From Branchiostoma floridae (taxonomy: Eukaryota > Chordata > Leptocardii > Amphioxiformes > Branchiostomatidae), in contig NC_049995.1 of the NCBI RefSeq assembly GCF_000003815.2, positions 17,869,777 to 17,933,776 on the forward strand: DNA of 64,000 nucleotides. Reading direction: 5' to 3'. A program made the position numbers and the translations under genes. Under the pieces are notes generated by a model. That model was not told the origin of the DNA and ran no database searches. It saw only the letters and a program-made list of their open reading frames with translations. Shown piece after piece: positions 7,301-63,524 of this stretch; the first letter of the stretch is position 1, and every line of letters starts with the position of its first letter.

Positions 7301-10300
7301 TGACGTGTACAAGTGTAGTAAAGGTGACAGTAGTGTGGTAGACTGGTATCACTTACCAACTAGGTATAGACTTTCCCATCAGTCAATAACATAATAAACA
7401 CAATCACTGTTTTCTAACTGTTTCTTCCAGATAAAGGTGAGTTATTTTAAAACAAACTGAACTGGAAAGGCCTTACAAAGTTTTGCCAGCTGTACCTTTG
7501 ACTTTGGGGACACCAGAACCCCCCTCCGCCTAGCGGGATGGGTAAGACGTTGCACCTTCCCAGGTTTCCTGGCGCTGGTCCTTCTTAAAGCAGCAATACC
7601 TGCACGGAGAATGTCTTCCCTCTCTGGGTTTCCTGGAAGAAGCAAGGGCAAACATCTTAAGATCAGGACTGTTTCCAGAACCTATACTTCCCTCCACATT
7701 TGATTTATGCAACAGAAATAAATCCACCCTGTCCTGTTCAAATAATTAAAAAATTATGACATGAAACTGCATTTTAGTAAACTCAAAATGACAGATTTGA
7801 CGATGAAAATCAAAAACATGGACTCCCAAACAACGAGAGAGACAGTCCTGATCTTAAGATGAAAAAAAGCGTAGCATATTTTGGAGCTTTCTTAGATACA
7901 AATTACACACAATTATTTTTAGCTATGGTTAGCTTATTGTACGTGACACTGTATATACATGTAGGCCAGGTGCCTGATTTATATAAATTAACAAGAAGAA
8001 TAGTGATTAGTCAGATTAAGAAACATGTTAGTGAAGAAATAGAGCCCACCATCGTTTGTCTCCTGGTGCAGTAGTTGTGACATATCCTCCTCCAGTCTGT
8101 GAGCTGGGTGCAGTCTGGGCCCTGGAGAAGGTACAAGCACCAAGGAGTCATACAGGTGGTCTTCTGGTTACATATTTTGGAGGCTGGGCTACTACAAGTG
8201 GAGTTGTGCGAGATAACTTTAGGGTGCTTGGCCCAGAAGCCAGAGGTCCTGGGTTCAAATCCTGTCATTCTACCGATCTTGTGCTCTTCAATGGGGAAGG
8301 CACTTGACACAACTTTCCTCACTCCACCCAGGTGTAAAAATGGGTGCCTGACTTCAGTTGGGGAGGTTAAAAGGGCGGCGGAAGAAAAGGGATGGGCTCC
8401 ACCTTCCAATACTGTGCCCTAGACACTGTAGACAATAACCCACTGTCCCTATATGTTTACCCTAACCATGCAAACCTATATATAGCTACCTACTACCACT
8501 TTAAAAAAAATGAATACTACATTGTACAACTAACAGTAACTACTGGCACTACTGTCAGTTGTGATCAAAGAACTTCCAGTCATACCTGTCCGTGCAGGCC
8601 TGTCTTTCCAGACAGGCTGGCCACGTCTTGTCTTGACCTTCATACGACCTTCAGGTACCCTCTTGTGTGCTGTGACTTCTGAGGAAGGCTTGGGCTACAG
8701 GACACAGAAAAAAAAACTGTTGTTAAACTTTGTTACCCTATTTCTTTCTTATTTTTAGTTAGAACAGTAATGGTTCTGGTATCCGTTCTGCCGGTTTTCC
8801 CCAAGCAGATGGAAAAGAGTTTTGAGTCAACAACCGGATGAGCTTCCACCCACAAACTTTTTTTTTGTGGTTTGGTTTGAACAAACAAACAAACAAAAAA
8901 CGAGAACAACGGACTGTACCTGTCTTCTACCTAGTAGTTGCAGCAGACTCTTAGCTGACATGTCCTTAATGTAAACAAACAAACAAAGAAGAAGAGCCGA
9001 TAATACCTGTGTTCTACCCAGCAGGTGCAGCAGACTCTCCGCTGACATGTCCGCAATATAAACAAATAAATAAACAAACAAGAACAGCCAACCGTACCTG
9101 TACTTGTGTCCTACCCAGTAGTTGCAGCAGACTCTCTGCCGACATGACCTCGGCTGACCCCACCTGCAGCTGTGCAGACACCTGGGACAGCTGCTTGATC
9201 ACATGACCAAGGTCCTGGATGATTGACAAGAAATATTATTTCCGAAAATAGTCTCATCAGGTTGGTAGAACATAGGAGAATTTTTTGACACAACTTGTTG
9301 GCCAGCAGGTATTTACATCAAAAAGGATTACTAAGCAATGTACTAAGTACCTGCTGGTTGTGTAAAAACAATGCTTCTTTATCCTAAGAAATGTTATTGC
9401 TACTGAGCATGGCGACTACTTTCTTGTACAAGTCAAGGACTCAATGTGTTCTTTGGTACACACAGACAGATAGACAGACAGCAGACAGACGGACAGACAG
9501 ACAGACAAACAGACCTGGTATACCGTTGGCAGCCCCCCTCCCCTGCTGGTACACGGGTGGCAGCCCCCCTCCCCTGCTGTACTGATCAGGTAAACAAACA
9601 AACAAACAAACAAACAGACCTGGTACACTGGTGGCAGCCCCCCTCCCCCACTGTACTGATCAGGTAAACAAACAAACAAACAAACAGACCTGGTACACGG
9701 CCGGCAGCCCCCCTCCCCCGCTGTACTGGTCAGGCAGCTGCTGGATGAACACCTGAAGAACTTTCACTGCAGCTCGATGAGCAGCTCCCAGCTTCTTTAA
9801 GACATGAGCCTAGAACACAGCGGAAAGGTCATCTCAGGTCGTCTCAAGAAAAGGACAGAAGACCAGGCTTTTAGCCAGGCATGTGTCATGGCGTCATTTG
9901 GACACGCTTTTCTTAAAATAACAAGAAATTGGACGCACTAGATGCCCTTACACTGGGGAGCAGATCCTCTGACAAGTATGAAATTCTGATTGACCAGGGA
10001 TGTCACTTAAGTTCATTTGTGACCACTCTGACAGTAATTTTGCCTCTCAGGAGTATCAAGGAGCTTTTATCTGATAAAGGCTCCTTGGGAATATGTTACA
10101 ATACACCGTTTTAACTTAAAATTTGTGAAAACTCTGCACGGACTCCAGGAAGACTAGTGAATTGTCACTAATGGAGATCTCAATAAACCAAACCAAACCA
10201 AACCACCATGGAATGCGTGTGGCGTGTGCTAAAGATTGTGTGTATCTGAATAATTATACATTCTAACTTTGATACTGTACGGAAAAGACAAGCATGTAAA

Positions 10301-13158: not shown

Positions 13159-13270
13159 CTGCACTACTTGGAACTCTTGGAAAAAAACCTAATACGGACG
13201 CAGAACAGGCGAAAACAAATCTGTCGACAGCGCGAAATACTCTGATTTTTTCGAAGCATCCGCCATTTTC
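13159..13270 (-). promoter_or_regulatory. Moonraker 5' UTR exon with YY1-like motif and uORF
   Basis: A consensus donor (AG|GTAAGC) at 13159/13158 joins to the acceptor before 12694, so transcription must start upstream of 13159. GAAAATGGCGG on the minus strand (13270-13260) fits a YY1-type motif. Its ATG opens a 25-codon reading frame that stops at TAG (13191-13189). That frame is the same as the main coding frame after splicing. The transcription start itself is not visible. Confidence 0.6.
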
Positions 13271-13537: not shown

Positions 13538-16500
13538 GCCCGGTAGCGCTGCGGACGCCGCAGACGGTTTTCAGCTCGTCACGTCCAAAACACGGAGAAA
13601 ATGGCGGGAAAACCGGCCTGGGTTGGCGACAGCTTACCGGAGACACGCACATCAGGGCGGGGAGGAGGAAAGTGTAGACATAGACAAGCTGGAAAAGAAT
13701 ATATTAGATTCCAAGTAAGGCCTGACACTTAGAGCATGCTTTGTTTACAAACTGCTTTGTTTACAAACTGCTTTGTTTACAAACTGCTTTGTTTACAAAC
13801 TGCTTTGTTTACAAACTTCCTTGTTGGCTGATATAGGTTCTGGATGCTATCTGAAATGTCAGACTGTTTCCAAAATCATATCCAGTTGTTTGAGTAATTA
13901 CCATTTGGCATATTCTTATTACCTGGGTGTCTTCATCAACGTATCAAAGTATATACTACTAGTAGTTAATAACCTGAAGTGACGTGTGTCTATTTTTCAG
14001 AGAGGAGCTGAGATGTTCAGAGTTCTTCTCGACTGTAAAAGGTATGTGACATTCTTAACTTAAGTTTACATGGCACCTACTAAAACTATTTCTAATGATG
14101 AACATAGAGTAAGTGTAATGAGTTATTGAACTCACCTATTTTTATTGCTATTGACATCTATGTATATTGGATGCCAATCAGTCAATGGCAGTTTTCTAGT
14201 ACAGTAGAAGCCGCCTAATTGCACAGCCTATTTGCCAGTAAATTTCGTGCAATTACCCTTATGGTGCAATAATGCGAAGCTATCTAGGTGGACCGCATCG
14301 GTTTGGGATTTGGGGATTCCGTGCAGGTAACAGAAGTGTGCGTTAATCCATTGTGCAATTAACTGGCTTCTACTGCCTATTATATGTATACCAGGCCCTG
14401 TGTTTGAACCATATTTTGCAGTTACATAATAGTACCATGACCATGGAAGCAGACAGACAGACAGAGGCAGCGTTAACTTTGGAGGAAATTTACTGGCAAA
14501 TAGGCTGTGCAATTAGGCGGCTTCTACTGTACTAGAAAACTGCCATTGACTGATTGGCATCCAATATACATAGAATCAATAGCAATAAAAATGTATGTAT
14601 GTATTCATGTGTGGGCCACAACACCAGCATACCGCTGCCTGTGGCCCACGTGTATTGTATCGTTTGCAATCTCAATAAATCAAATCAAATCATGGCTCAT
14701 ATAACCGTTCCGTGCTGTTTTCTTCAAACAAGATGGCAATTTTCTGTTTTGTTTCTACAGACATTTTCAGACACGTAAAAAGAAGAGACTGGGAGAGTGT
14801 ATGTATCCCTACCACACACATCAGCCCGACCCAAAACTGTGGCTGTGAGGACCTGAGAAGAGAATCCCTCCCCTGTCAACACTGCGTGGAGTCATCAGCA
14901 GGGACAGAGGGTGTGCAAGGGTTTGTGGAGTCAGCAGCAGTGACGGGGAGTCTCCAAGGGTTTGATGACATCGTGTGCTACGGGCTGGGAAGATTCTCCA
15001 GTTGTGTGACGGCGAGATATCAGCTGGGGTTTCTTCTGCTGCTTACAGATGTTTTAGATGTAAGTATTAATAATTGGTTGCTTATGACAGTGGACTACAG
15101 CTTAATGTCCTATCCTAAGGACTGCAACCCTTTCCAGTAACATGCATGTTGGGCGCATACAAAATAGGCAAGTGCCTCATGCGGATATTAAATAAGTGCA
15201 GTTCTAGATAAAAATGGATTCACCAGTCAGATTTTGGGGACATTTTTACATGTCATTTTTTCATTGCTCTTGCAATAGAAAGTAAAACATCTAAAAAAAT
15301 GTTTCTTTATTGGATTTGTACCCATAAAAGTTGCATTTTTATATATTATATCATATGGCAGGGCATAATTGGGGTATGATATCCAATACAAGTTAGTCTT
15401 AAGATGATAAAAGAACACCAGTCTGAGAAGGCTTTCATCATCATCATCAGTCACTGTATTCTGCATCTATAGTCTTGAGAAAGGCAAAGCTTGTTTTGGA
15501 AAGTGCTTGATTGTTTTTTAAGTTGATTTAGTCCTACAAATCTCTATTATGTATTTCCACCATTTCCACCTTTTGTGCAGGTCCCCGGCAGCTGCTTTGT
15601 CTACGATCCTCTCTTCTCATCCAGTGAGAAACAGCTGCTGGAGAAACTTGGGTTTCAACTTATACAGAAGAATGAGGTAATACATAGAAAATGTATGTGT
15701 AACTGACATGTAATATACTAGTAGTTGAAAAGTTTGAGCTACATTCCAACACAAGGGAGACAATCACCAGTTAACCATCCTCCTACGCAGGGACATCCAA
15801 CAGCCAAACTGCCTGTCTGGGTGTGCCCTGCTCTTTCAACCGTCACTCTTAGTTCCTGACCGCCCTGCTTATAAATGTTAATAAGGTTACCCTTGGCCTT
15901 ATACATGCGAGACAGCTTTTGAAAACAGAAAGCCTGTTCTCTGATTGGCTGGCAGCTGGTTTGGGGGGGGGACGTCCACAGGAACTAAGAGTGACGGTTG
16001 AAAGAGCAGGGTACATCCAGACAGGCAAATTGGCTGTCCCTGCGTAGGAGTATGCAGTAAACAGTTGTTTGTTGTTTACAGGAAGGTAAGAGACCAGCAA
16101 ACAGTTGTTTGTTGTTTACAGGAGGGTAAGAGACCAGTAAACAGTTGTTTGTTGTTTACAGGAAGGTAAGAGACCAGTAAACAGTTGTTTGTTGTTTACA
16201 GGAAGGTAAGAGACCAGTAAACAGTTGTTTGTTGTTTATAGGAAGGTAAGAGACCAGTAAACAGTTGTTTGTTGTTTACAGGAAGGTAAGAGACCAGTAA
16301 ACAGAAGAACCCTGTTCTACATGCCCCACTGTGGGAAGCCCCTGTACAACAACCTGCTGTGGTCCAACTGGGGACCACAACTCAGCAACCTAGCCGTGCT
16401 GGGGAACAGTCTGTCCAACATGGCTCTCAGGTTGTTATTTTTGTTTGTTTAAACCTTTCTTTATTTCAATTACTTTATTTATTTATTAATTTCATACACA

Positions 16501-40700: not shown

Positions 40701-43700
40701 TATATAATGATTGTAACCCATCTAGTGACCCACACAGTAACCCATCTCTCTGCCCACAGAGCTGCTGCCGTCCCAGCCCCAGTTAGAACATTATGACCCA
40801 CGCTGTAACTCGTCTCTGTCCCACAGAGCTGCTGCCGTCCCAGCCCCAGTTAGAACATTATGACCCATGTTGTAACCCATCTAGCGACCCACGCAGTAAC
40901 CCATCTCTCTGCCCACAGACCTGCTGCCGTCCCAGCCCCAGTCCCTCAGCTCGCCCCAAGGTCCTCCGCTCTTCCTGTGTCTCAAGGTCATGCAGATGAA
41001 GAAGTCCTTCACCGGCGGCAAGGAGGTCGTTAACCCAGGGAGCACCAAGTTGCCTGAATACTGGTTCGCCATCCCGAAGGACAGGTAAACTCCGGTGGGA
41101 GACACAATTTTGTCAACATTGGTGGGAGACACTGATTCAATGGCTGGGGTTGCAGAAACATCTGTTGGAGATATTCAGTATATTTTGGTTTGCCATCCTG
41201 AAGGACAGATAAACTCCAGTGGGAGACACAATTTTGTCAACCTTGGTGGGAGACACTGATCATTCACTTTGGTAGGAGGCAGTCAAACCTAAGAAGACAT
41301 ACAATGGTATGAGACACTGGTTAGAGTTGCAGAAACATTGATAGGAGATATTCAGTATATTTTGGTTTGCCATCCCAAAGGACAGGTAAACTCCGATAGG
41401 AGACACTGATACACTTCAGTAGGAGACAGTTCAACATTGGCATGAGACACTGGTTGGGGTGCAGAAACATTGGTAGGAGATATTGTGGTCACAAATGTAT
41501 TACCTAAAGCTTGTTAAAGCTGCTCAAATTGGTGTGAGACTGATAAACCTTGATGAGAGACGGTAAACAATGGCAGGGAAAATGTCATTTATGTACAGGA
41601 CTCTCCTGACTGTTTGAATTAGAGTGATATTGCCAAAATATTGGGTTGTTAAGTTTCTGAAAACGTGGGTCTAAATCACAGTAAAGAACCATGGTCCAAA
41701 CTAAAGCACTAGAGACTGCTCAGACAATGCTAAAAGTAAATGTAGCTAGAAAAGACTGTTTAGAGTCATATTGCCAAAACATTGGGTTGTTGAGGTTCTA
41801 GACGTTAGAGTCTAAATCACAGTTAAGCCCCGTTTACAAATCAAGAATTTAGTTGGCCGAGTTNNNNNNNNNNNNNNNNNNNNNNNNNNNNNNNNNNNNN
41901 NNNNNNNNNNNNNNNNNNNNNNNNNNNNNNNNNNNNNNNNNNNNNNNNNNNNNNNNNNNNNNNNNNNNNNNNNNNNNNNNNNNNNNNNNNNNNNNNNNNN
42001 NNNNNNNNNNNNNNNNNNNNNNNNNNNNNNNNNNNNNNNNNNNNNNNNNNNNNNNNNNNNNNNNNNNNNNNNNNNNNNNNNNNNNNNNNNNNNNNNNNNN
42101 NNNNNNNNNNNNNNNNNNNNNNNNNNNNNNNNNNNNNNNNNNNNNNNNNNNNNNNNNNNNNNNNNNNNNNNNNNNNNNNNNNNNNNNNNNNNNNNNNNNN
42201 NNNNNNNNNNNNNNNNNNNNNNNNNNNNNNNNNNNNNNNNNNNNNNNNNNNNNNNNNNNNNNNNNNNNNNNNNNNNNNNNNNNNNNNNNNNNNNNGCGAG
42301 TTGTCAGCGAACTCTAAAGTCACGAGGAGGCATGCCCCTGATTTTTTGGAGAAAACGGCAGAGTTTCTTCGTCGGCATCAGGGTCATACCTCCTCATAAT
42401 TTAGAGTTCGCTGACAACTCGGCCGAGCTAAATTCTTGATTTGTAAACGGGGCTTAAAGAACCATGGTCCAAACTAAAGCACTACGGACTGCTCAGACTA
42501 TGCTGCATGTAGCTAGAAAAGAGGATGTTTTCTTCCTTACCAGAGCCGACCACCTCTACGCGTTCTTCCTGCAATGGTCGCCGGACGTGTACGGCCACGA
42601 GGTCAACAAGGCCGACCTGGAAGTGTCCGGTTTCGTCGTGCTCGGGGAGGAGACGGACTCGCTGGAGGTCGTCGACGACTTCTACTCATCAGAGTCAAGT
42701 CTGTACAAGGACTGGGAGGTCAGTTTGTTTGTTTGTTTGTTATTATGAAAAACAAGCTGTCGGGTTTCATGGTGCTCGGAGAGGAGGCGGACTTGCTAGA
42801 GGTCATCAATCATTGCTACTCCGAGGAATCGAGTCTGTACAAGGACTGGGAGGTCAGTTTGTTTGTTTGTTTGTTTGTTTTTATTTAATATGACTGAGAA
42901 GGGGTTCGTGGTGCTCGGCGAGGAGACCGACTCGCTGGAGGTCGTCGATGACTTCTACTCTTCAGAGTCGAGTCTGTACAAGGACTGGGAGGTCAGTTTG
43001 TTTGTTTGTTTGTTTGTTATTATTTATATGAAAAACAAGCTGTCGGGATTCGTGGTGCTCGGAGAGGAGGCAGACTTGCTAGAGGTCATCAATCATTTCT
43101 ACTCCGAGGAATCGAGTCTGTACAAGGACTGGGAGGTCAGTTTGTTTGTCCGTTTGTTTGTTTGTTTTTATTTCATATGACTGAAAAGGGTTTTGTGGTG
43201 CTCGGCGAGGAAACAGACTCGCTGGAGGTCGTCGATGATTTCTACTCTTCTGAGTCGAGTCTGTACAAGGACTGGGAGGTCAGGGGTCACATTCTTGATA
43301 AGAATGAAAAAAATGACATTTTTTTGCAGGTTGATTTCTCGTGTTATTTTGTTTGAAATGAAGATTGATTGCTCGAAGAAAATTATGATTGGAAACTAAA
43401 GTGAGCTGGGTTTTTCCTAACAGGTGTGTAAGGCTGGTTCTCCTACCTGAAAAATCGTGCCTTCCTAAATGAGAGGGGTTGGAAGTATATTTAATGTTAT
43501 GTCATATGCAGTTCTCGACTTTAGGTGCTATTTCACAACGACAATGATATTAGAAAAAGAAAATGTATCAAAGTTAACCAAACCAGATTTCCTTCTAAGA
43601 GATTCTGAGCATGATAGAGATTACAGCTGCCACACGTACAAGAATTTACAGTTTGTTTATTTTGTTGTTTACATCAGATCGTCACGGCGATGGAGGCCAG

Positions 43701-46700
43701 GCGTAGGTTGTCCATGCTGGAAGTTGAGGACAGTTTACCGCAGCCAACACTCCTGGGCAAGAGCAACCTACTGGACTCCAAACATGTCTCACTGGTAAGA
43801 CTGAACTCTGAACTCCAACCCCTAACCTTCCTTAGCCAACACTCCTGAGCTAGACTCCAAACACGTCTCACTGGTAAGACTGAACTTTGAACTCCAACCC
43901 CTAACCTTCCTTAGCCGACACTCCTGGGCAAGAACAACCTGCTGGACTCCAAACACGTCTCACTGGTAAGACTGAACTTTGAACTCCAACCCTTAACCTT
44001 CCTTAGCCGACACTCCTGGGCAAGAGCAACCTGCTGGACTCCAAACATGTCTCACTGGTAAGACATGTTCCCCCAGCTTGTCATTGACAGGTGTCATGTT
44101 CCCCAGCATGTGATTGACAGATGCCATGTTCCCCAGCGTGTGATTGACAGATGTCATGTTCCCCAGCATGTGATTGACAGATGCCATGTTCCCCAGCGTG
44201 TGATTGACAGATGTCATGTTCCCCAGCATGTGATTGACAGATGTCATGTTCCCCAGCTTGTGATTGACAGGTGTCATGTTTATAACTGTGTGTGATTGAC
44301 AGGTGTCATGTTCCCCCAGCTTGTGATTGACAGGTGTCATGTTCCCCAACGTGTGATTGACAGGTGTCATGTTCCCCCAGCTTGCCCAGTTCCTGCCCCC
44401 GAGGACCGAGGGTTACGCCTGGATGCTGATATACTCCACGTTTGAACACGGCATCAGTTATGACTGTGTGATTGACAGGTGTCATGTTTATGACTGTGTG
44501 TGATTGACATGTGATTGACAGGTGTCATGTTCCCCCAGCTTGCCCAGTTCCTGCCCCCGAGGACCGAGGGTTACGCCTGGATGCTGATATACTCCACGTT
44601 TGAACACGGCATCAGCCTCACCACCATGTACAAGAAGATGGTCGGAGTGGACTCACCTGTGCTGCTCGTGGTGCAAGACTCGGAAAATAACGTAAGTCAC
44701 AAGAATGGATGAAGGGATGGAGGGATTTGATGGGTGAATGGAGGGAGGGAGGGAGGGAGGGAGGGAGGGAGGGAGGGGTGAATGATTGAATGGATTATGA
44801 GTGGACTGTTGGATGAATGAATGAGAATGAATTGGTGGATGGATGGATTTGTGGATGGATGGATGGGTGGATGGATTGATAGTTGTATGGATGAGTATAT
44901 TTAATGAGTGGATGGATGAGTGAATGAATGAGTGAATGGATGAATGCACTTTGAAATTTGTATCAGATTCTAATCGAAATTATATGATATTGATTGAAAC
45001 CTGTCTATCCTCAGGTGTTCGGAGCTCTGACGTCCAGTCCAGTTAAGATCAGCGAGCATTTCTACGGCACAGGAGAATCTTTCCTTTTCACCTTCTTCCA
45101 AGACTTCAAGGTAAGTGTAGGAAGTGTAGTAATTGTCTTAAGTTGGACTTGACATTTCATTATTAGGAGGTCTGTTGGACTGTAGATTAAGTGTTGGGTT
45201 AATCTTATGTATGTTTTATGATTTTGAGGTTGCCCCCAAACCATGTCTGATGTGAAATTCTGCGTAAAATACCGGTATGGCGTGCAAAACTCTGCAAAAT
45301 GTGTATACAGATTGCAGTATCCTAAAGTCAAAATTTGATGCAGAATTCTGTGTACTACACAATTCTGCCTCTAAATGTACAATTCTGCAGAACTGACTTA
45401 TATAAGTTCCACGAAATCTATGAAATGTAATCATCATATGAAGGAACTATGCAATGTACAATGTACATGTATACCCTAATAATTAGAGTCCTCCAAATTG
45501 AAGATGGTAATGAAAGTAGTCCGAATTCAAAATAGTAGTTACTCTGGATTTATAATCATATTAATGTCACATGTTTAAGGAAACAGTGGAATATTTGGAG
45601 TTTGTTGGAAACTCTCCTCACCTGAGACTGTGCTCCTTCCCCAGGTTTACAAGTGGACAGGTGACAACACTTTCTTCATCAAGGGGGACAAGGACTGTCT
45701 GGCCATCGGGGGAGGAGAGTAGGTCACGTCTTATACACCTTCTTAGATCCTCACATTTTCGTTAAGACATCCTTACTATGGCTTTCTTTGGGGGAGGAGA
45801 GTAGGTCACGTCTTATACACCTTCTTAGATCCTCACATTTTCTTTAAGACTGTCTGGCCATCGGGGGAGGAGAGGAGGTCACGTCTTATACACCTTCTTA
45901 GATCCTTAGAGAATTTTCCTTAGGACATTCTCGTTATAGCCTGGTATCCTGCCATATAATAGCTCCTGAGTCTCCGATCCTCTCTGCAAGGACTGTCTGG
46001 CCATCGGGGGAGGAGAGTAGGTCACGTCTTATACACCTTCTTAGATCATCAAATTTTCTTTAAGACATCCTTATTATGGCTTTCTTTGGGGGAGGAGAGT
46101 AGGTCACGTCTTATACACCTTCTTAGATCATCAAATTTTCGTTAAGACATCCTTATTATGGCTTTCTTTGATTTTCTTATACACCTTCTTAGATCCTACC
46201 ATTTTCATTAAGACATCCTTATTATGGCTTTATTTGATTTTCTTATACACCTTCTTAGATCCTCACATTTTCTTTAAGACATCCTTATTATGGCTTTATT
46301 TTATTTTCATGGTGTCATGTTTCCGCTCCTCCCTGTGATTGGATGAGATGTTATGACTGACTGTATGATTGACTTATTAGATCCTCAAATTTTCCGTATG
46401 GTATTCTTATTGTAGCTGTGTGTTGCTGTCGTATGATATGATTGACAGGTGTCATGTTTCCCCTGGCTGCCTGTGGTTGGATGAGATGTTATGACTGTAT
46501 GATTGACAGGTGTCATGTTCCCCCCCAGCGGCCAGTTTGGCCTGTGGTTGGACGAGATGTTATGACTGTATGATTGACAGGTGTCATGTTTCCCCCCAGT
46601 TCGGCCTGTGGTTGGCCGAGATGTTATGACTGTATGATTGACAGGTGTCATGTTTCCCCCAGTGGCCAGTTTGGCCTGTGGTTGGACGAGATGTTATGAC

Positions 46701-47645
46701 TGTATGATTGACAGGTGTCATGTTCCCCCCCAGCGGCCAGTTCGGCCTGTGGTTGGACGAGATGTTATGACTGTACTGTATGATTGACAGGTGTCATGTT
46801 TACCCCCAGTTCGGCCTGTGGTTGGCCGAGATGTTATGACTGTATGATTGACAGGTGTCATGTTTCCCCCAGTGGCCAGTTCGGCCTGTGGTTGGACGAG
46901 ATGTTATGACTGTATGATTGACAGGTGTCATGTTTCCCCCCCAGCGGCCAGTTCGGCCTGTGGTTGGACGAGATGTTATGACTGTATGATTGACAGGTGT
47001 CATGTTTCCCCCCCAGCGGCCAGTTTGGCCTGTGGTTGGATGAGATGTTATGACTGTATGATTGACAGGTGTCATGTTTCCCCCCCAGCGGCCAGTTTGG
47101 CCTGTGGTTGGACGAGATGTTATGACTGTATGATTGACAGGTGTCATGTTTCCCCCCAGTTCGGCCTGTGGTTGGCCGAGATGTTATGACTGTATGATTG
47201 ACAGGTGTCATGTTTCCCCCAGTGGCCAGTTCGGCCTGTGGTTGGACGAGATGTTATGACTGTATGATTGACAGGTGTCATGTTTCCCCCCCAGCGGCCA
47301 GTTCGGCCTGTGGTTGGACGAGATGTGGTGCCTGTATGATTGACAGGTGTCATGTTTCCCCCAGCGGCCAGTTTGGTCTGTGGTTGGACGAGATGTTATG
47401 ACTGTATGATTGACAGGTGTCATGTTTCCCCCCAGCGGCCAGTTCGGCCTGTGGTTGGACGAGATGTTATGACTGTATGATTGACAGGTGTCATGTTTCC
47501 CCCCAGCGGCCAGTTCGGCCTGTGGTTGGACGAGATGTTGTACCACGGAAGAACCCACGCCTGTACGACCTTCAACAACCGGCTGCTGACCTCCCAGGAG
47601 GACTTCACCATCAAGGGGCTGGAGGCCTGGGGCTTCGAGATGTAA
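19731..47645 (+). CDS. OXR1: OXR1/NCOA7-type TLDc protein (LysM, GRAM-like, TLDc)
   Basis: TLDc proteins protect against oxidative stress, and several bind the V-ATPase. Exons: 19731-19816, 29161-29205, 29591-29730, 32516-32607, 32920-33027, 33358-33471, 33880-33912, 34153-34305, 36245-36423, 37049-37950, 40919-41084, 42544-42718, 43678-43794, 44539-44691, 45015-45110, 45645-45718, 47507-47645; phases agree and give 923 codons. LysM covers about residues 117-160 (DSLAGIALQFDTTPSELARL), followed by MLYVPDPD. A GRAM-like region covers about 240-317 (GTVSGVLLVTPNAIMFDPHK). A 300-codon acidic, Ser/Asp/Val-rich exon 10 follows. Then come EYWFAIPKDRADHLYAFFLQ and the TLDc domain (about 765-923: LPPRTEGYAWMLIYSTFEHG, VYKWTGDNTFFIKGD, FGLWLDEMLYHGRTHACTTF). 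In invertebrates one gene usually stands for both OXR1 and NCOA7. Introns 4 and 6 end in AAG. At least eleven of its exons have tandemly amplified borders. Confidence 0.92.
20494..20632. mobile_element. MITE with ATCTCCAAGCAGATCCTA ends
   Basis: ATCTCCAAGCAGATCCTA and TAGGATCTGCTTGGAGAT are perfect inverse ends; the interior GCATAAGATAGTATTAAAAGC also returns inverted. Lies in OXR1 intron 1. Confidence 0.85.
20862..21030. repeat. (TGAA)n/(ATGA)n microsatellite
   Basis: Imperfect AATGAATGA and GACTGACTGA runs in OXR1 intron 1. Confidence 0.95.
21077..21443. mobile_element. CAGGGCTCGAAAT element, GTGCACCC interior
   Basis: Left end CAGGGCTCGAAATTC, right end ATTTCGAGCCCTG. The interior repeats GGGTGCAC. 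Flanks are CACAC/CATAC. Near copy of 29784-30138. Confidence 0.8.
21467..21935. mobile_element. ACAGTYAAACCTG element
   Basis: Ends ACAGTTAAACCTGCC and GGCAGGTTTGACTGT; the interior repeats GTGGTCG. Related to 23286-23754 and the truncated 56894-56943. Confidence 0.75.
22190..22759. mobile_element. Nested elements: GGTCCGG/GGTACC-rich unit split by another
   Basis: An outer element (TAGGGGTGGGTA ... TACCCAGCCCTA; GGTCCGGTTCAGGTCC interior) is interrupted at 22207-22335 by an element with AGGGCTGTGTACCTAAA inverse ends and (CAGGTA)n interior. A relative of the outer one lies at 54460-54920. Confidence 0.65.
22790..23070. repeat. Degenerate array rich in CCAAT/ATTGG
   Basis: Roughly 60-bp diverged units with GGATTAGCCAATCACAGG or GGACCAATCA. 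About nine CCAAT or ATTGG pentamers fall in 280 bases of OXR1 intron 1. Confidence 0.7.
23286..23754. mobile_element. ACAGTCAAACCTG element
   Basis: Ends ACAGTCAAACCTG and CAAGTTTGACTGTA, interior GTGGCCGGTA repeats. Non-coding. Confidence 0.75.
23755..25136. other. OXR1 intron 1 sequence, nothing recognised
   Basis: AT-rich intron DNA. I see no exon with family support and no clear repeat, apart from a CCTGTTTCCCTACC block that recurs at 26065. Confidence 0.5.
25137..25621. mobile_element. CAGGG-ended element, TGCATGT/TTGCAA interior
   Basis: Left end CAGGGTTCGAAATAC, right end GTATTTTGATCCCTG, flanked by ACATG on both sides (5-bp target duplication). Interior rich in TTGCATGTCAA. An open frame across it is an artefact. 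Confidence 0.75.
25628..26024. mobile_element. Element with TTCTGGGGAGAACCCTG end
   Basis: Inverse-orientation relative of 62172-62561, sharing CTCCACTATACTA, AAAACTTGTGAATG and GGGGAGAACCCTG. It directly abuts the preceding element. Confidence 0.7.
26800..27011. mobile_element. TACTGTAAATGCA MITE, GCGGT-rich
   Basis: Inverse ends TACTGTAAATGCA and TGCATTTACAGTA; interior TTTAATTTCGCGGTAGCGGG and CACCGCGAA blocks. Other copies at 37995-38206 and 53087-53281. TA flanks suggest a Tc1/mariner-like mover (inference). Confidence 0.85.
27198..27515. mobile_element. TGCAGGT-type element, partial
   Basis: Starts CAGGGTTTGAAATCC and shares CAGGTAGACACCAGAAATAC and CAATTTTACCTGCACTAACC with 31105-31550 and 57535-57802. 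The right end is not clear. Confidence 0.6.
28016..28051. other. Perfect 17-bp palindrome with 2-base loop
   Basis: AAAAGTGGTCGGTTATT, CT, AATAACCGACCACTTTT. In OXR1 intron 1, about 310 bases before a gap. Confidence 0.95.
28366..28465. other. Assembly gap, 100 N
   Basis: A 100-N placeholder in OXR1 intron 1. Confidence 0.99.
28980..29130. repeat. Two 62-bp tandem copies
   Basis: GTGAGATTAATCCCCAGGTC, ATTAACCAGGGGTTTAATTA and CTGAATCATTAATCTGT blocks repeat just upstream of the OXR1 exon 2 acceptor. Unlike other arrays it does not include the splice site. Confidence 0.8.
29706..31042 (+). repeat. Splice-junction array, OXR1 exon 3 donor, 72-bp units
   Basis: Twelve near-identical 72-bp units from about 30150. 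Each has TATCCCAGAAAAATGTCTCTG followed by GGTCAGTTCACACC. This matches the exon 3 end TATCCCCGAAAACTCTCGCTC|GGTCAGT, so the array derives from the donor. Since 72 is a multiple of 3, a long open frame crosses it, but that is not a gene. Units include AAACCCTAACCCTA, a chance telomere-like motif. Confidence 0.85.
29784..30138. mobile_element. CAGGGCTCGAAAT element, GTGCACCC interior
   Basis: Close copy of 21077-21443. Ends CAGGGCTCGAAATTC and TATTTCAAGCCCTG, flanked by CTAAAC on both sides. It sits inside the exon 3 donor array, between the first divergent copies and the homogeneous 72-bp units. Confidence 0.85.
31105..31550. mobile_element. CAGGGCTCGAAATAC element, TGCAGGT interior (with gap)
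   Basis: Inverse ends CAGGGCTCGAAATAC and GTATTTCGAGCCCTG, flanked by CAGAA on both sides (5-bp target duplication). The 100-N gap 31120-31219 lies inside it. An internal 95-bp stretch is doubled. Confidence 0.85.
31120..31219. other. Assembly gap, 100 N
   Basis: A 100-N placeholder inside a mobile element. Confidence 0.99.
32152..32425. mobile_element. Diverged reverse copy of the 9.9/60.0 kb repeat
   Basis: CATCCCTGGTCAATCAGAAT, TTTCATGCTTGTCAGAGGAT and CTCCCCAGTGTAA are inverse to blocks at 9950-10010 and 60130-60180. Confidence 0.6.
32806..32950 (+). repeat. Splice-junction array, OXR1 exon 5 acceptor, two copies
   Basis: TTTTGTTTACCCAAAG|GTTCAGAAGACCGACTCG at 32850 is repeated as ...CCCCAAAG|GTCCAGAAGAGCGACTCG at 32920. 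The second continues into the LysM exon. Confidence 0.85.
33110..33372 (+). repeat. Splice-junction array, OXR1 exon 6 acceptor
   Basis: About five units of TTGTTTAG|ATGCTGTACGTGCCTGACCC with decreasing similarity upstream. Acceptor-bearing near-perfect copies are at 33286, 33320 and the real one at 33358. Confidence 0.85.
33455..33755 (+). repeat. Exon 6 donor copy 250 bp downstream
   Basis: The exon end CCTTCGAGGAGATTC|GTAAGTTCT and following TAGATTCCCTTA recur at 33712-33745 as CCTTCCAGGAGATTTGTAAGT, now also with a TTCCAG acceptor-like sequence. Confidence 0.7.
34262..34860 (+). repeat. Splice-junction array, OXR1 exon 8 donor
   Basis: About five 44-bp units of GAGTTCCTCAAGATCAACGT plus CAAGTACATCACAGCTGGCAAG|GTGAG follow the exon. 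They decay into 23-bp units (CAGTACAGCACTGCTGGCAA) to about 34860. Confidence 0.92.
35588..36244 (+). repeat. Splice-junction array, OXR1 exon 9 acceptor, four diverged copies
   Basis: Units of about 150 bp at roughly 35620, 35818, 35966 and 36120 resemble the acceptor and 5' half of exon 9. The one at 35832 has an intact GTTTCAG and 27 codons identical to exon 9 except Val to Ile. It then diverges and has no clear donor. Others carry frame breaks. Confidence 0.8.
36383..36862 (+). repeat. Splice-junction array, OXR1 exon 9 donor
   Basis: Five copies after the real one of ATGTACCACGATATCAGG plus CCCATGATGGAACCACA plus AAAGGTAGGACACAC, separated by (AAAC)n of variable length. Minus-strand open frames across it are artefacts. 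Confidence 0.93.
37995..38206. mobile_element. TACTGTAAATGCA MITE, GCGGT-rich
   Basis: Same family as 26800-27011 with matching inverse ends; lies 45 bases after the exon 10 donor. Confidence 0.85.
38600..40918 (+). repeat. Splice-junction array, OXR1 exon 11 acceptor, about 24 units
   Basis: Units of 57-92 bp, mostly 68-69, each TCTCTGTCCCACAG|AGCTGC plus TGCCGTCCCAGCCCCAGTTA plus GAACATTATGACCCACGCAG. They are near-identical from 39240 and degenerate upstream to about 38600 (AACCCATCTAATGACCCA). The most downstream acceptor, 40918, reads into the conserved exon. Several successive units are open in the coding frame. Confidence 0.93.
41827..42453. mobile_element. TTAA-flanked inverted-repeat element (piggyBac-like MITE), with gap
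   Basis: Inverse ends GCCCCGTTTACAAATCAAG and CTTGATTTGTAAACGGGGC are flanked by TTAA on both sides. Part of the interior is N (41864-42295). A second copy starts at 63789. TTAA targets are typical of piggyBac; no transposase is seen. Confidence 0.85.
41864..42295. other. Assembly gap, 432 N
   Basis: A sized gap inside the TTAA element. Confidence 0.99.
42620..43285 (+). repeat. Splice-junction array, OXR1 exon 12 donor, five alternating cassettes
   Basis: Donors at 42718, 42852, 42991, 43135 and 43278. Each unit has about 95-105 coding-like bases ending AAGGACTGGGAG|GTCAG, separated by (GTTT)n. Units alternate A (LGEETDSLEVVDDFYSSE), B (LGEEADLLEVINH-YSEE), A, B, A. All are stop-free in frame. 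Each copy is preceded by an AAG at which a phase-0 exon could begin, but the intervening introns would be only about 39-53 bases. Confidence 0.92.
43744..44062 (+). repeat. Splice-junction array, OXR1 exon 13 donor, four copies
   Basis: Units of CACTCCTGGGCAAGAGCAAC plus CTGCTGGACTCCAAACACG plus TCTCACTG|GTAAGACTGAAC, with CCCCTAACCTTCCTTAG closing the spacer. Copy 2 has a deletion creating a stop; copies 3 and 4 are open. Confidence 0.92.
44063..44538 (+). repeat. Splice-junction array, OXR1 exon 14 acceptor
   Basis: About a dozen units of roughly 30 bp (TGTGATTGACAGGTGTCATG plus TTCCCCAGC), plus a 77-bp exact copy of the start of exon 14 at 44381-44457 that breaks off at GGCATCAG. The real exon starts at 44539. 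Confidence 0.92.
44700..44950. repeat. (GGGA)n and (ATGA/GGATG)n microsatellite
   Basis: Starts about 10 bases after the exon 14 donor: AATGGATGAAGGGATGG, then (GGGA)n at 44733-44776, then TGGATGGATG and GAATGAATG runs. Confidence 0.93.
45690..46320 (+). repeat. Splice-junction array, OXR1 exon 16 donor
   Basis: The exon end ATCGGGGGAGGAGA|GTAGGT plus CACGTCTTATACACCTTCTTAG recurs at about 45787, 45855, 45994 and 46088. It degenerates to TTATACACCTTCTTAGATCC units to 46270. Confidence 0.9.
46430..47512 (+). repeat. Splice-junction array, OXR1 exon 17 acceptor, about 16 units
   Basis: Units of about 62-76 bp: TGATTGACAGGTGTCATGTT plus TCCCCCCAG|CGGCCAGTTCGG plus CCTGTGGTTGGACGAGATGT plus TATGACTGTA. 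Only the last acceptor (47506) continues into the final exon; in the others TTGTACCACGG is replaced by TTATGACTG. Confidence 0.94.
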
Positions 47646-54060: not shown

Positions 54061-54108
54061 GACCGAAGCGATCCCGATTGAACCTGTGTCGGTGAGGACT
54101 CGGACACG

Positions 54109-57100
54109 ATGCCGACAGACTCCAGACGGGTCCCCGGGCCGCAGGACAGCCGGTCCCCGCACTGGTACGGGAAACACGCGGTAAGGACGTAGCTTCACTC
54201 TCCTCTCTCTGTTGCCCCCCTCCCCCCTCACACGCAGTGCAGACGGAACTGTGAGAACAGTTGTGCTAGCCTGGATACCAGTCCCTCGCTCTATACTATA
54301 GCCCTTTCGCGCTAGTGTATAATCCTTATCCCAGGGAAGGCCACAAGCCCCAGTCTCTATTTGCACTCAGTACCATACCCCAACCTCAAAATATATCTTT
54401 CGTGTTGCATGATAGATACTTGAGATCAGGCTGGGGTTTGGTAACCAGGCTAAATGGCACCCGGTTTCTGATAACTATTGTACAGTGCACAGGTACAAAA
54501 CCGGTTTTTCTTATTGTACCGGTCCGGAAAAACCGGACCTGAAAACATTTGGTGGACCGGATGTTGGACCTTTTCGAAAATGAACAGACTATATGATCAG
54601 GAATTCACGCATTCGGGGCCTTACCGATCGAAGAAAGTAACAAGAGCGAAGCAGACTACAGTCATTTCTACAAAGTTTTGCAGTCAATCGTACAGAGGCA
54701 GTTATTAGTCTTGTAGGATTTTAGAACGCCAGTGGGAGTCAAATACTCCACAATGTCAAACATACTTTTTTGCAGCGAAATGGACCATTGTTTTGAGTAT
54801 CGTCCATTCATATGGTTTCACATACTGAATCAGGTCCAGGTTCAGGTCTGGACCTGAACCTGATCCTTTGGACCTGAACCGGACCTGGACCTGAATTTTC
54901 TGTTCCGGTACTCTCCCCTAATGTATACTGTTAATGTAAGGAGGCAGTGCAGAGCAGATTTAGACGTAAAAGGTTTTGTTTTTATTTCCAGACTCGGCAG
55001 GAAGGCGATACCAGACCTGACGGGAGAGGAGACCACGACCTCCGACCTGTGTGTGAGTAAAATTAACAAACAACAACAACAACAAAAATTGTACACATAT
55101 TCTATTCCAAGCCAAAAATGTTTTGGCCTGATTTTGAGTAACACCTCCACTGTCTTTGATGCCAATTTGCCCAAAGAAGGTTTCAAAAGTCTAGTGTCAG
55201 TTTCCCGCTTGCTTGATGAGTGATCCATGTTGACTTGTTTTTTTACACTTGTTTCAGACCTCCACGCGGGCGTTGTCAGCCAGGCCACGGGGTCGGCCTA
55301 CATCGAGATGGGTCAGACGAAGGTCATCGCAGCTGTGTGAGTACGACCTCTGACCTTTGCCCTTGCCAATAGACTGCTTCAGGGTTCAAACTGCTTATGG
55401 TGCATTGTGGGTAATATGTCAAAGTTGAAACACGTCTGGACATGTATCAAGCCTTGTATTTGCCTTCACCTTTGACCTTTGAACAGGTACGGCCCGCGGG
55501 AGATTGCTCGGCGCGAGGAGTTTACGATGAAGGGTCGGCTGTGCTGTGAGCTGAAGTTCGCCACGTTTGCCTGCAGACGGAGGAGACAGCACATCCAGGT
55601 GGGTACAGCAAGGGTAGCACACTTCCATGTAATGTACAGCAAAGGTACAGCACATCCAGGTGGGTACAGCTAAGGTGTAGCAAAGTACAGCACATTCAGG
55701 TTGTACAGCAAAGGAACAGCACAGGTACAGCACATCCAGGTGGGTACAGCTCATCTAGGGAAAGCACAGCACAGCACATGCGGGTGGGTACAGCAAAGGT
55801 ATAGCACATCTTGGTGTACAGCNNNNNNNNNNNNNNNNNNNNNNNNNNNNNNNNNNNNNNNNNNNNNNNNNNNNNNNNNNNNNNNNNNNNNNNNNNNNNN
55901 NNNNNNNNNNNNNNNNNNNNNNNNNNNNNNNNNNNNNNNNNNNNNNNNNNNNNNNNNNNNNNNNNNNNNNNNNNNNNNNNNNNNNNNNNNNNNNNNNNNN
56001 NNNNNNNNNNNNNNNNNNNNNNNNNNNNNNNNNNNNNNNNNNNNNNNNNNNNNNNNNNNNNNNNNNNNNNNNNNNNNNNNNNNNNNNNNNNNNNNNNNNN
56101 NNNNNNNNNNNNNNNNNNNNNNNNNNNNNNNNNNNNNNNNNNNNNNNNNNNNNNNNNNNNNNNNNNNNNNNNNNNNNNNNNNNNNNNNNNNNNNNNNNNN
56201 NNNNNNNNNNNNNNNNNNNNNNNNNNNNNNNNNNNNNNNNNNNNNNNNNNNNNNNNNNNNNNNNNNNNNNNNNNNNNNNNNNNNNNNNNNNNNNNNNNNN
56301 NNNNNNNNNNNNNNNNNNNNNNNNNNNNNNNNNNNNNNNNNNNNNNNNNNNNNNNNNNNNNNNNNNNNNNNNNNNNNNNNNNNNNNNNNNNNNNNNNNNN
56401 NNNNNNNNNNNNNNNNNNNNNNNNNNNNNNNNNNNNNNNNNNNNNNNNNNNNNNNNNNNNNNNNNNNNNNNNNNNNNNNNNNNNNNNNNNNNNNNNNNNN
56501 NNNNNNNNNNNNNNNNNNNNNNNNNNNNNNNNNNCTGGATTTTCGGAGATTTTTTTGCAGTCTGTAGATATTCATCAGAAATGCATAAATGGGGTGACAT
56601 GAATTCATGGTTACCGTAGAAATAGCAAAGTATAACCTCATTTGAACATTTGAAGACTTACGGTATCCTGGGAAGACATCTTCTCCTTGTTTGTGTTTCA
56701 GGATAACCAGGAGAAGGACGGGGCGTTGATTGTCCTACAGGCCCTGGAGCCTGCGGTCTGCTTGGTGAGTGGAACATTTTTATCATGATCAAGATTGACA
56801 TCTAAACTGCCAATCCTCCTACGCAGGGACATCAACGACGAGACCGCCTGCTCTCTCAACCGTCATCCTTAGTTCCTGGACGCCTAGCTTATAAATACAG
56901 TCAAACCTGTCTATAGCGGCCACTCAAGGGTTTGGAGAAATATTTACTTGTACTGATAGAAATAAGAAGTAAGATAGTGCGCTGAAGTTGTGTCGTTGTG
57001 TTTTTTGTTTTTTTGTTTTGTTTGCTTTTAGACAGATGAGGACAATGTGGCACTGCAATCAAGTTAGTAACTTATTTTAACAGTGACACAGTACAGACAG

Positions 57101-59944: not shown

Positions 59945-60045
59945 GAGTACATATAAGCCACTTCACCGTATGAACTGCTCATGCACAAGGTCAAAGGTCA
60001 TATTAGAAGATGAACGGACGGACATGAGACTGAAGAGACCAGCAG

Positions 60046-60190
60046 GCTTTTAGCCAGGCATGCGTCATGGCGTCATCTGGACGCGCTTTTCTTAAAATAA
60101 CAAGAAATTGTACGCACTAGATGCTCTTACACTGGGGAGCAGATCCTCTGACAAGCATGAAATTCTGATTGACCAGGGATGCCACCAGGT
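60046..60190. mobile_element. Interspersed repeat, close copy of 9868-10010
   Basis: GCTTTTAGCCAGGCATG through CTGATTGACCAGGGATG, within the likely EXOSC6 3' UTR. Confidence 0.75.
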
Positions 60191-60243
60191 CATTTGTGGT
60201 CACAGTCTTCTACTATGACCTCTTTCACAGTCCACTTTCAATG

Positions 60244-60270
60244 CCCCCCCCCCCCCCCCCCCCCGCCCCC
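60244..60270. repeat. Poly(C) tract
   Basis: A run of about 20 C, a single G, then CCCCCC. Length is likely unstable or uncertain. Confidence 0.9.
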
Positions 60271-60702
60271 CAAGAAAAAACCCAGCCCCATTCGAAGATT
60301 GCAACCGAGTCTAAGAAAACCTCAACTTTAGCTGTTTCTCACACTGTTGTAAGAAAATGTTGCTGCCATCCTGTGAAACTGGTATGGTACAGTAGAGCGG
60401 CAAGTAAAACAGATAAACACTTAACAAAACAGATACGGAAGTAATAAATGAATTGTCCATTTTGCTTGGGAGTAGTTTTGGTATAAACTATTTTTTCACA
60501 TATGTAAGCTAAGACTTTTGAATATTCCATTATTTTATACAATGTATGGACATAGTTAAATAATCGACATGACTCTTTGTAAGGTCTACTCTATCTGCAC
60601 ACAACGATACTTTAGTGCCAGTACTAGTAATTATTTTAACTATTTCCGTAAAACTAAGCTAGAAATGTATTTCGAGTCTTGAGCAAGGTCTCAATAGTCT
60701 GA

Positions 60703-60708
60703 AATAAA
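60703..60708 (+). terminator. Possible poly(A) signal of EXOSC6
   Basis: AATAAA, with a second AAATAAAG about 15 bases on, then GTTTGTGTG-rich sequence. It lies 760 bases after the stop, beyond an interspersed repeat that would be part of the 3' UTR. Confidence 0.4.
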
Positions 60709-60724
60709 AAAGATAAGAAATAAA

Positions 60725-61500
60725 GAATTTATAGTTTGTGTGCCATGTTCTATGTGTTCTGTTATTTGTTCAGTATTAAACTGCCGGATCAGGTAGATTT
60801 CATAATAAGGGTAAAATTTTTTTAGTACTCACAGTTTTGTGTTGCCCTTGAACTCATTGTAATATCCAACCAAAGAAAAATTGGACTCACCCAAATTTTC
60901 GACTGAACAGCACCAGTCTTTGTCAAGGAATGAACAACCCAACTAGCTACAACGTGCTACATAATTGATTCGACTGAGAATGCTTTACAATTTGCTGACA
61001 ACGCTTAAATCATATATACTTAGTATATATTACTAGTGGGCTTATTTAGGAGAAGGCATTACAGACCCTAAAAGTGGGGCATCTCTTGAGGACAAGGTAG
61101 AAGGAAGGTACTTAACTTTTAAAACTTTCTTTAAGTTAGAAAAAAGGATTCGTTATTTGTGTAATTATATGTTTTGTTTTGCTTTTGTTACATTTCAACG
61201 AAAGAGGTTTAATATCCTCGTATTGAAAAATGTCCTGTGAACTCTACAACTGAAGTGCCACCTGTCCGTGTTGGGTAGAACTGCAGTGGTGACGTACTTG
61301 CTGCCATGGCGACGATAGCAAAACAAAGCATCCAACCGCATCAAAACGCCAAGACCGCCTTCATATACATGCATTTTGGTTTTAGTTTATCCGATCATTG
61401 TAGTACTTATTAATCCACTAATACATGTACTAGTTAATTACCAAATTTTTAATTAATGATTTTAGGTCGTTTTTTTTTTCCTTGTTGTGTTGTGTTTCAC
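60725..61500. other. Intergenic region between EXOSC6 and the C22orf23-like gene
   Basis: AT-rich; no gene, and no repeat I recognise. A promoter for the downstream gene probably lies near 61450-61545, without a visible TATA box. Confidence 0.45.
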
Positions 61501-61545
61501 GAAAGCTGGTTGTTAAGCGTTTGGCGCGTCTTGTCCAAACGGTCC

Positions 61546-61556
61546 AAGATGGCGGC
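61546..61556 (+). promoter_or_regulatory. YY1-like motif over the C22orf23-like start codon
   Basis: AAGATGGCGGC, identical in sequence and placement to the SRRD start motif. Confidence 0.5.
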
Positions 61557-63524
61557 CCGACAGCCCGTCGCGCGAGGAGGGATGTGGAACACTCAGCAGG
61601 CCCAGTACAGTAAGGAGACTCAGGAGCTCCTTAAAGGTGCGGGACCGAGATAAGAACACAGGGAAGGGTCTGGGGTTAAAACTGATGGTGTCTTGTGGCG
61701 ATTTAAGGCGGTATCTGTGTGTGTGTGTGTGTGTGTGGTATACCAAGCGTCCGTCACAAAAATAATTTGTTGTTTTTGTTGCTCTGTTTAGCACCAACTC
61801 TCATAAATTCCACCGGATATGCCATAATACCACCACATGGGGAAAATACATGAATTTAAAGTCATTGAAAGAGATGTACCGATGCAGTATAAGTAACGTT
61901 AATCTATCTACATGTTTTATTTAAAGAAGTCTACCTACTCTACTCTTGAAATGAAGTTGTGCCAAATTATGACATATCTTTGTTTTGAATCCCCAGTCAT
62001 GATGCAGGAGTCGAAGCTGACGAATTTCCAGCAGAGAAAACTCAAGCAGACGATGAAAGGTGCGTTTACCTGTGGTTGTGCTGGTTCAGTTTTATTTCCA
62101 GACAAATTAGACAACAAGGATCTTACTGTATTAGTACAGACTTAACAGTGAGTAATGGTACATGTAGTAGTCAGGGTTCTCCCCAGAATTTGTAGTATAG
62201 TGGAGGGGCTGGCAAAAATAACCCGCACCAACGCGTTGCGCTTTCATGGAAATGGGTTCATTTTGCAATGACAGAGGGTGTCAAATACTACAAGTATAAT
62301 ATATTGTTGTGATTCCTTTGTTGTGAAGTGGCAAAACGACTATTGTTTTGATCATTGCTCATTCACAAGTTTTTGCAGACAATGCTGACTGAAAAAGTGA
62401 TGCCACTTGGCACAAAAATCTGTGAATTGTCATTAATTTTAGCAAAGGTAACAAAGAAAATAGGGAAGAAACACACTAAATTTGAAAAATAGTATAGTAG
62501 TGGAGCTGGCTGAGATTATATTGGAGGGCCTCCCTTATTCCACCCTCTAGGGAGAACCCTGGTAGTAAAAACAGTAGTTGAATGTTGTATAGTTAGTAGT
62601 TATAATTACTGTAGTAGATATACTACTAGTAGTATAGAGTCAGAACTATCAATGGTTTAGAAGAGATAGAATAAAGAAAGCTAGATGGTCATCAATTTTA
62701 CCTGAGTTGAGTGAAGAAAATATGGGTCTAAAGTACATTTGCCAAACTCACAACATCCAAGGGCCTGCTGGTCTAGAGATTGGAACCAAGAATTTTGTTT
62801 AAACTAAAGCATGCAAAAAACTCATCTGTTTCTGTTCCAGATGGCGGCACCCTCCCCCTCAACTGTCCACCAACCAGCAGCCAGCGTCCCCAGCGCCCCG
62901 TCGCGCCCGTGACCCCCAGCAAAAAGGTCAACCCACGGACATACCTGGGAGGTCGGAGGTCAAAGGAAGCTTGCGAGAGCTCACCGGCCGCACAGCCAGA
63001 GGATTATAGACCCAGACCAAAGAGTCAGTACTTGTTTATTTGTTTGTGTGTTTCTTTATATTAGTGATCACTCAAGGTATAGTAGAAGCCAGTTAATTGC
63101 ACAATGGATTGCCGTACACTTCTGTTAGTTCTTTAGCGGCATTCCAAAATCCAAAACCAGAGCGGTCCAGCTGGATAACTTCGCATTGTTGCACCATCTG
63201 GATAACTGCACAAAATACACTGGCAAATCGGGTGTGCAATTAAGCAGCTTCTACTGTACACACAAAAAAAAGGTTAGGGCAGCATGATGGCATATGGAGA
63301 TAACATGTTTGTTTGTTTGTTTCTTTGTATTTACAGAGGCGGTGTGTACAGATAAAGAGAAGGCGCGGTTAGGCAGCTTGATGGCATATGGAGATAACAT
63401 GTTTATTTATTTGTTTGTATTTACAGAGGCGGTGTGTACGGATAAAGAGAAGGCACGGTTAGGCAGCCTGGTGGCGTATAGTAATGTTTGTTTGTTTGTA
63501 TTTACAGAGGCGGTGTGTACGGAT
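61549..63524 (+). CDS. C22orf23: UPF0193/EVG1-like protein (C22orf23), 3' end missing
   Basis: A small conserved animal protein of unknown function. Exons: 61549-61636, 61997-62059, 62841-63023, then an exon beginning at 63337, 63427 or 63508. Seen: MWNTQQAQYSKETQELLK joining to VMMQESKLTNFQQRKLKQTM, then DGGTLPLNCPPTSSQRP, which match the family core of the form ESKLTN.QQR...LPL.C.PTSSQR. The next exon gives KAVCTDKEKARLGSL, matching the EKEKQRL region. Phases are 1, 1 and 1 at the three joins. The fourth exon is present in three tandem copies and the last runs into the gap at 63525. The remaining half of the protein is not visible. The start ATG lies in an AAGATGGCGGC motif. Confidence 0.85.
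61712..61738. repeat. (GT)n microsatellite
   Basis: GTGTGTGTGTGTGTGTGTGT in intron 1 of the C22orf23-like gene. Confidence 0.95.
62172..62561. mobile_element. CAGGGTTCTCCCC element with 5-bp target duplication
   Basis: Inverse ends CAGGGTTCTCCCCAGA and TAGGGAGAACCCTG, flanked by GTAGT on both sides. Relative of 25628-26024. Confidence 0.85.
63080..63256. mobile_element. MITE with AGTAGAAGCC ends
   Basis: ATAGTAGAAGCCAGTTAATT and AATTAAGCAGCTTCTACTGT ends, relative of 14202-14375. Confidence 0.75.
63275..63524 (+). repeat. Splice-junction array, C22orf23-like exon 4, runs into gap
   Basis: Three acceptors (TATTTACAG|AGGCGGTGTGTAC) precede exon starts at 63337, 63427 and 63508, each followed by GATAAAGAGAAGGC in the first two. 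The tail of a fourth, earlier copy is at 63278-63305. Confidence 0.88.

Follow-up and report, generated by a model that had tools for sequence, protein, structure and literature searches.

Probable mirage minisatellites at amphioxus splice junctions, with a hotspot in an OXR1-like gene

Tandem repeats that span exon-intron boundaries, duplicating the splice sites, have been described in amphioxus as mirage minisatellites. As recounted in two later papers, the Adh3 mirages (Canestro et al. 2002) have units of 10-72 bases, with reported length and somatic instability (PMC3087553, PMC3902484). In the globin genes BflGb6 and BflGb9, acceptor or donor edges are duplicated in units of 150-160 bases with the real exon adjoining the array, the BflGb6 mirage sitting at the exon 2 acceptor; from the Adh3 data and their own globin reverse-transcription polymerase chain reaction, the authors suggest that splicing is undisturbed (PMC3087553). 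Lancelet PGBD5 has imperfect tandem repeats of 60 and 108 bases that overlap splice sites; these held up against new Illumina and re-examined Sanger data in a paper that also cites mirages in Adh and TnC (PMC3902484), and introns of VCBP3 are described as containing whole exons or parts of exons, some of them including splice sites (PMC2632668). Here we analyse a 64,000-nucleotide stretch of Branchiostoma floridae DNA (the window; C17:17869777-17933776 in an assembly of 513 Mb and 431 contigs), in which an OXR1-like gene carries tandem arrays at 13 of its 32 splice junctions.

Like the Adh3 mirages, the arrays in the window straddle exon-intron boundaries and duplicate splice sites; unlike those described for Adh3, they affect 13 of the 32 junctions of a single gene and also include longer units. 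With the globin mirages they share duplicated edges beside the real exon, although the globins are described with one duplicated boundary per gene, and with PGBD5, where two sites in one gene are described, they share imperfect tandem repeats overlapping splice sites. A further likeness is to the Rogers model, in which introns arise when exon sequence containing AGGT is tandemly duplicated (cited in PMC3087553), with potato RdRp treated as a case (PMC4974935). There too, tandem duplication makes extra pairs of splice sites, but the copies described here lengthen existing introns. Elsewhere in this assembly, one of nine globin exon-2 regions (locus L058) has a 158-base unit repeated 4.2 times at the exon 2 acceptor, an array that fits the published BflGb6 mirage. 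The preliminary description of the window had mentioned such minisatellites at amphioxus Adh, correctly according to the published accounts, and the kind itself is already published. What this analysis adds is the density in OXR1, a rate from genes unselected for repeats, a placement test, a codon-position test and a count of decoy sites. We found no earlier genome-wide count of mirages or rate per junction in the open-licence literature (subscription papers lay outside the search), and the OXR1 window is the densest mirage case known to us.

Many exon edges in the window carry head-to-tail repeats of a segment made of the exon end, its GT or AG and some intron sequence (Table 1). We modelled the exons of five genes from splice signals and frame-consistent splicing, and called a junction amplified when a 32-nucleotide probe spanning it matched again, at 24 or more of its 32 positions, within 1500 bases. 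By this test, 16 of the 88 junctions are amplified: the 13 in OXR1 and 3/56 in the other four genes pooled (moonraker 1/26, SRRD 1/8, EXOSC6 1/18, C22orf23-like gene 0/4). Boundaries on both sides of exons are affected, so that donor arrays and acceptor arrays are both present, and the probe test found no array lying wholly within an exon. The donor of moonraker exon 6 was missed by the gapless probe and detected by Tandem Repeats Finder (TRF) and the array test.

The arrays reported in the preliminary description are therefore real, and 15 of its 17 sites hold. C22orf23-like exon 4 could not be closed owing to a gap of undetermined bases (N), and OXR1 exon 3 fails: its 72-base array resembles the gene only from the fifth intron base, with a best probe match of 22/32, and the event (29735-31026) is counted as intronic. 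Three junctions come in addition, namely the donors of OXR1 exon 6 and moonraker exon 13 and the second side of OXR1 exon 11. The same description noted that donor arrays always follow the exon and acceptor arrays always precede it. This is true in the window, but it is the geometry of any tandem array straddling an exon edge, since tandem duplication itself gives that layout. Two further observations concern OXR1. Its intron 3 contains, at 30139-31033, 12.4 repeats of a 72-base unit with CCCTAA-like stretches, classed as intronic, and the donor edge of exon 4 has, by eye, a degenerate second copy downstream (32516-32680), under the thresholds used.

As background, we took 33 kinesin and 6 myosin loci from the same genome, picked by Pfam matches and not by repeats; the sample thus covers the motor-domain exons of two gene families in one assembly. 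Aldehyde dehydrogenase was also considered, and had too few exons. Background exons came from a spliced protein-to-DNA alignment developed for this analysis, with terminal exons shorter than 35 nucleotides dropped before counting; the models of L045 (three stops), L048, L049 and L034 (one stop each) may have wrong junctions. The probe test found 8/396 amplified junctions in kinesin and 2/96 in myosin loci, a total of 10/492 in 7 of the 39 loci, to which a single L017 exon contributes both its ends and L026 two junctions. The rate of mirages in this sample is thus about 2% of junctions; OXR1, with a rate roughly 20 times higher, is a hotspot. The cases clear by inspection are acceptor arrays in L009 and L033, donor arrays in L028, L044 and L046, and a donor copy in L047. 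The kinesin gene L017 (model 5326-5915, minus strand of the locus) has about five repeats of an entire exon, its two splice sites and an AAAC microsatellite included, with presumably one exon copy used per message. This contradicts the preliminary claim that the exon body stays single. Another kinesin locus, L026 (model 5073-5263), has two adjacent similar versions of an exon, differing by eye mainly at synonymous-looking sites; they look like mutually exclusive alternative coding exons.

The arrays are probably mirage minisatellites, that is, chance tandem duplications that straddled exon edges and were tolerated, with OXR1 as a local hotspot. We favour this reading because published mirages share their anatomy with the window arrays, because kinesin and myosin genes carry arrays of the same kind, mostly confined to introns, and because changes in the exon-joined copy fall at third codon positions while extra copies change almost freely. 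Short gene segments (about 20 to 170 bases) would duplicate in tandem and expand by slippage or unequal exchange. A segment straddling an exon edge would be tolerated, as one junction stays attached to the exon body and the right protein is still made, and segments inside exons would mostly be purged by selection. The edge beside the exon body would stay coding; further copies would be intronic and drift nearly freely, decoy GT and AG included, with splicing taking the site nearest the exon body. OXR1 would then be a local hotspot of minisatellite turnover. The motor (slippage or unequal exchange), the purging by selection within exons and correct splicing in the animal are all steps that we infer.

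Codon positions bear on which copy is used. Over 22 arrays with 932 exon-derived sites (omitting moonraker exon 6, L017, L026, L047 and L028 exon 4), changes found only in the copy attached to the exon body number 1, 3 and 18 at codon positions 1, 2 and 3, and changes within extra copies 24, 26 and 41. Coding constraint therefore acts on the attached copy and hardly at all on the extra ones. Sites with one extra copy only, where the direction of change is indeterminate, give 5/4/15, and mixed sites 1/0/4. The splice signals themselves are mostly present, as they are in many though not all copies of amphioxus mirages, with GT in 40/45 and AG in 62/71 copies across 26 junctions of the window and background, totals that include a false moonraker exon 6 copy and two wrong-side copies at OXR1 exon 14; this retention is about that of neighbouring exon-derived bases. 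The decoys at one OXR1 exon can be as many as 24 acceptors or 11 donors. In the 16 window arrays, none of 83 decoys would, if used, give an in-frame, open product. On a simple generic position matrix, 59 of them equal or exceed the real site in score, and 24 of these 59 lie in the acceptor array of OXR1 exon 11. With so many high-scoring decoys and none predicted to be productive, we infer that splicing must favour the site nearest the exon body.

Selection for back-up or regulated splice sites is a highly improbable reason for the persistence of the extra sites. Such selection would account for the GT or AG retained in 102/116 decoys and for the high scores, but the dinucleotides are kept no better than the exon-derived bases adjoining them, the changes in extra copies are spread almost evenly over codon positions, and the decoys would yield no in-frame, open product.

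The preliminary description saw no reason why ordinary slippage should favour splice sites, and proposed comparing junctions with other intron positions. By raw position there is no enrichment at junctions: in the window, 16/90 junctions are repeated vs 208/797 intron probes. Since an array inflates its intron with further copies of itself, we did not rely on this count by itself, and each array was counted once. Weighted by copy number, repeats occupy 2.4% of junctions vs 1.3% of introns in the 43 genes other than OXR1 (ratio 1.8 in a gene bootstrap, 95% interval 0.97-2.87), and 41% vs 9% in OXR1. At the loosest probe threshold, the kinesin excess is nearly gone (14/396 junctions, or 3.5%, vs 3.1% of intron). 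The claim is only partly borne out: an approximately twofold excess is seen in the 39 background loci with each array counted once, and none by a raw count of bases or positions.

Several results weigh against chance and tolerance as a full account. In the placement test, array units were placed at random in collapsed genes, each array being counted once; 11 of 36 kinesin and myosin arrays span a junction vs 5.7 expected (P=0.018), as do 10 of 19 vs 2.9 expected in OXR1 (P=0.0001), a gene picked for looking odd. Random placement leaves a roughly twofold or larger junction excess unaccounted for. Little of it is removed by matching for guanine-cytosine (GC) content once probes derived from exons are dropped (232 outside OXR1, 391 within it): 6.4 amplified junctions are expected vs 13/548 observed outside OXR1, and 2.7 vs 13/32 within it. 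We rejected GC as a sufficient cause of the excess; a first matching (10.0 expected vs 13 outside OXR1, 5.5 vs 13 in OXR1) was misleading, exon-derived copies having inflated the GC-rich class of intron. Changes within extra copies also show a slight excess at third positions (P=0.05). TRF finds small repeats inside exons (39 bases twice in an SRRD exon, and 12 bases in OXR1 exon 10), which means that exons do not escape entirely, and this reading does not account for the OXR1 hotspot.

A process tied to splicing or transcription, such as R-loops or spliceosome-linked breaks, might instead duplicate DNA preferentially at exon-intron junctions, as the preliminary description proposed. We consider this unlikely. 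It would explain the excess in the placement test, which persists in the kinesin and myosin loci when only near-identical, hence recent, copies are counted (7/17 vs 2.7 expected, P=0.009). However, the background excess is borderline without L026 (9/33 vs 5.3 expected, P=0.064) and not significant for arrays found by TRF only (5/21 vs 2.75, P=0.12), and in kinesin it fades at the loosest threshold, as given above. In OXR1, TRF arrays give 7/15 vs 1.4 expected. We preferred probe-based events to those of TRF alone because TRF missed junction copies (OXR1 exons 9, 11 and 16) and called the SRRD in-exon repeat intronic. Most background arrays (25/36) are confined to introns, and L017 has amplified a whole exon. 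Nor do the breakpoints lie at the junction: the exon share of the unit runs from 0.06 to 0.93 with a mean of 0.42, not distinguishable from uniform (Kolmogorov-Smirnov P=0.14; n=21 of 26 junctions, with fractions entered by hand based on nearest-copy homology and omitting moonraker exon 6, the OXR1 exon 6 donor, the OXR1 exon 9 acceptor and both sides of L017 exon 6). That the junction has no preferred place in the unit speaks against breakage at the splice site, and nothing observed links the process to splicing.

Alternatively, some feature of junctions (chromatin, transcription or splicing) may bias tandem duplication in the lancelet germline towards them two- to fourfold, with OXR1 as an unchecked locus; we regard this as possible but doubtful. 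Longer persistence of exon-anchored copies is unlikely to be the main cause of the excess, which is also seen among near-identical copies, a rejection weakened by the near disappearance of the kinesin excess at the loosest threshold. A true modest excess of arrays at junctions is likely, although not yet secure.

The DNA flanking the arrays also differs. Intron edges have a GC content of 0.443 at amplified vs 0.370 at other junctions (P=3e-7), and a TTTG/AAAC microsatellite lies within 60 bases of 6/27 amplified vs 5/553 other junctions (P=2e-6), an association whose background part rests on one exon counted at both sides; for both comparisons, moonraker exon 6 was added to the amplified class by hand. 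These GC-richer edges and microsatellites point to ordinary minisatellite formation, and the microsatellites may cause the arrays or merely accompany them.

Could haplotypes or reads have been joined into false tandem arrays during assembly? One globin mirage was aberrantly assembled in the draft genome, according to its authors (PMC3087553), and two of the six gaps in the window (55823-56534 and 63525-63624) start directly at splice-junction arrays. Given that position, the arrays probably broke the assembly there, and array copy numbers beside gaps may be wrong. As the origin of the arrays, such an artefact is nevertheless barely credible: the differences among the copies, and between them and the used exon, follow a codon pattern that makes biological sense, arrays recur at unrelated loci, and the PGBD5 repeats were upheld by resequencing (PMC3902484).

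Pfam matches over the curated cut-offs were obtained for all five genes of the window: LysM and TLDc in the OXR1-like gene, SRR1 in SRRD, RNase_PH in the EXOSC6-like gene, UPF0193 in the C22orf23-like gene and MNR in moonraker, which lies on the minus strand. The exact names (moonraker, SRRD, OXR1, EXOSC6, C22orf23) are putative and in part follow the preliminary description. The OXR1 model is the firmest of the five, since its 17 exons yield a single open frame of 923 residues. Frame-consistent splicing also gives single open frames for SRRD (a model starting inside the first exon shown, with the 5' part left out), EXOSC6 and exons 1-3 of the C22orf23-like gene. The moonraker frame is open from its ATG to exon 11 and lost beyond, where a gap probably hides sequence. 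Within a coding exon of SRRD, TRF places the 39-base (13-codon) tandem duplication at 14886-14964.

Table 1. Arrays at splice junctions of the window and the OXR1-like gene (positions within the window; units in bases).
Feature	Position	Strand	Details
OXR1-like gene (LysM + TLDc)	19731-47645	+	17 exons, single open frame, 923 residues; 13/32 splice junctions tandemly amplified
Donor array, moonraker exon 6 (9214-9098)	8910-9155	-	unit ~87
Donor array, moonraker exon 5 (9809-9690)	9493-9741	-	unit 70; TTTG microsatellite adjoins donor
Short donor array, moonraker exon 13 (4417-4328)	4265-4331	-	unit 19, by TRF; absent from preliminary description
Acceptor array, SRRD (real exon 16282-16430)	16044-16317	+	unit 40; 5 extra copies
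Acceptor array, OXR1 exon 5 (32920-33027)	32828-32951	+	unit 68
Acceptor array, OXR1 exon 6 (33358-33471)	33027-33395	+	unit 38
Lone dispersed copy, OXR1 exon 6 donor	33700-33735	+	250 bases downstream
Donor array, OXR1 exon 8 (34153-34305)	34253-34879	+	unit 44
Acceptor array, OXR1 exon 9 (36245-36423)	35609-36354	+	unit 154/106
Donor array, OXR1 exon 9	36370-36874	+	unit 81-89; AAAC microsatellite
Acceptor array, OXR1 exon 11 (40919-41084)	38631-40952	+	unit 69; 24 extra copies
Donor array, OXR1 exon 11	41053-41493	+	diverged; detected by probe, missed by TRF
Donor array, OXR1 exon 12 (42544-42718)	42619-43293	+	unit ~139
Donor array, OXR1 exon 13 (43678-43794), merging into acceptor array, exon 14 (44539-44691)	43731-44624	+	
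Donor array, OXR1 exon 16 (45645-45718), merging into acceptor array, exon 17 (47507-47645)	45681-47550	+	units 82, 71
Donor array, EXOSC6-like exon 4 (55487-55598)	55572-55822	+	stops at N gap
Acceptor array, C22orf23-like (UPF0193) exon 4	63272-63524	+	3 units; last reaches N gap, real exon unseen

OXR1 amounts to a natural experiment on splice-site choice, in which many decoys are as strong as the real site by sequence score, and the splicing machinery would have to ignore dozens of similar decoy sites. Mirage arrays of this kind are also material from which introns could be gained and exons extended.

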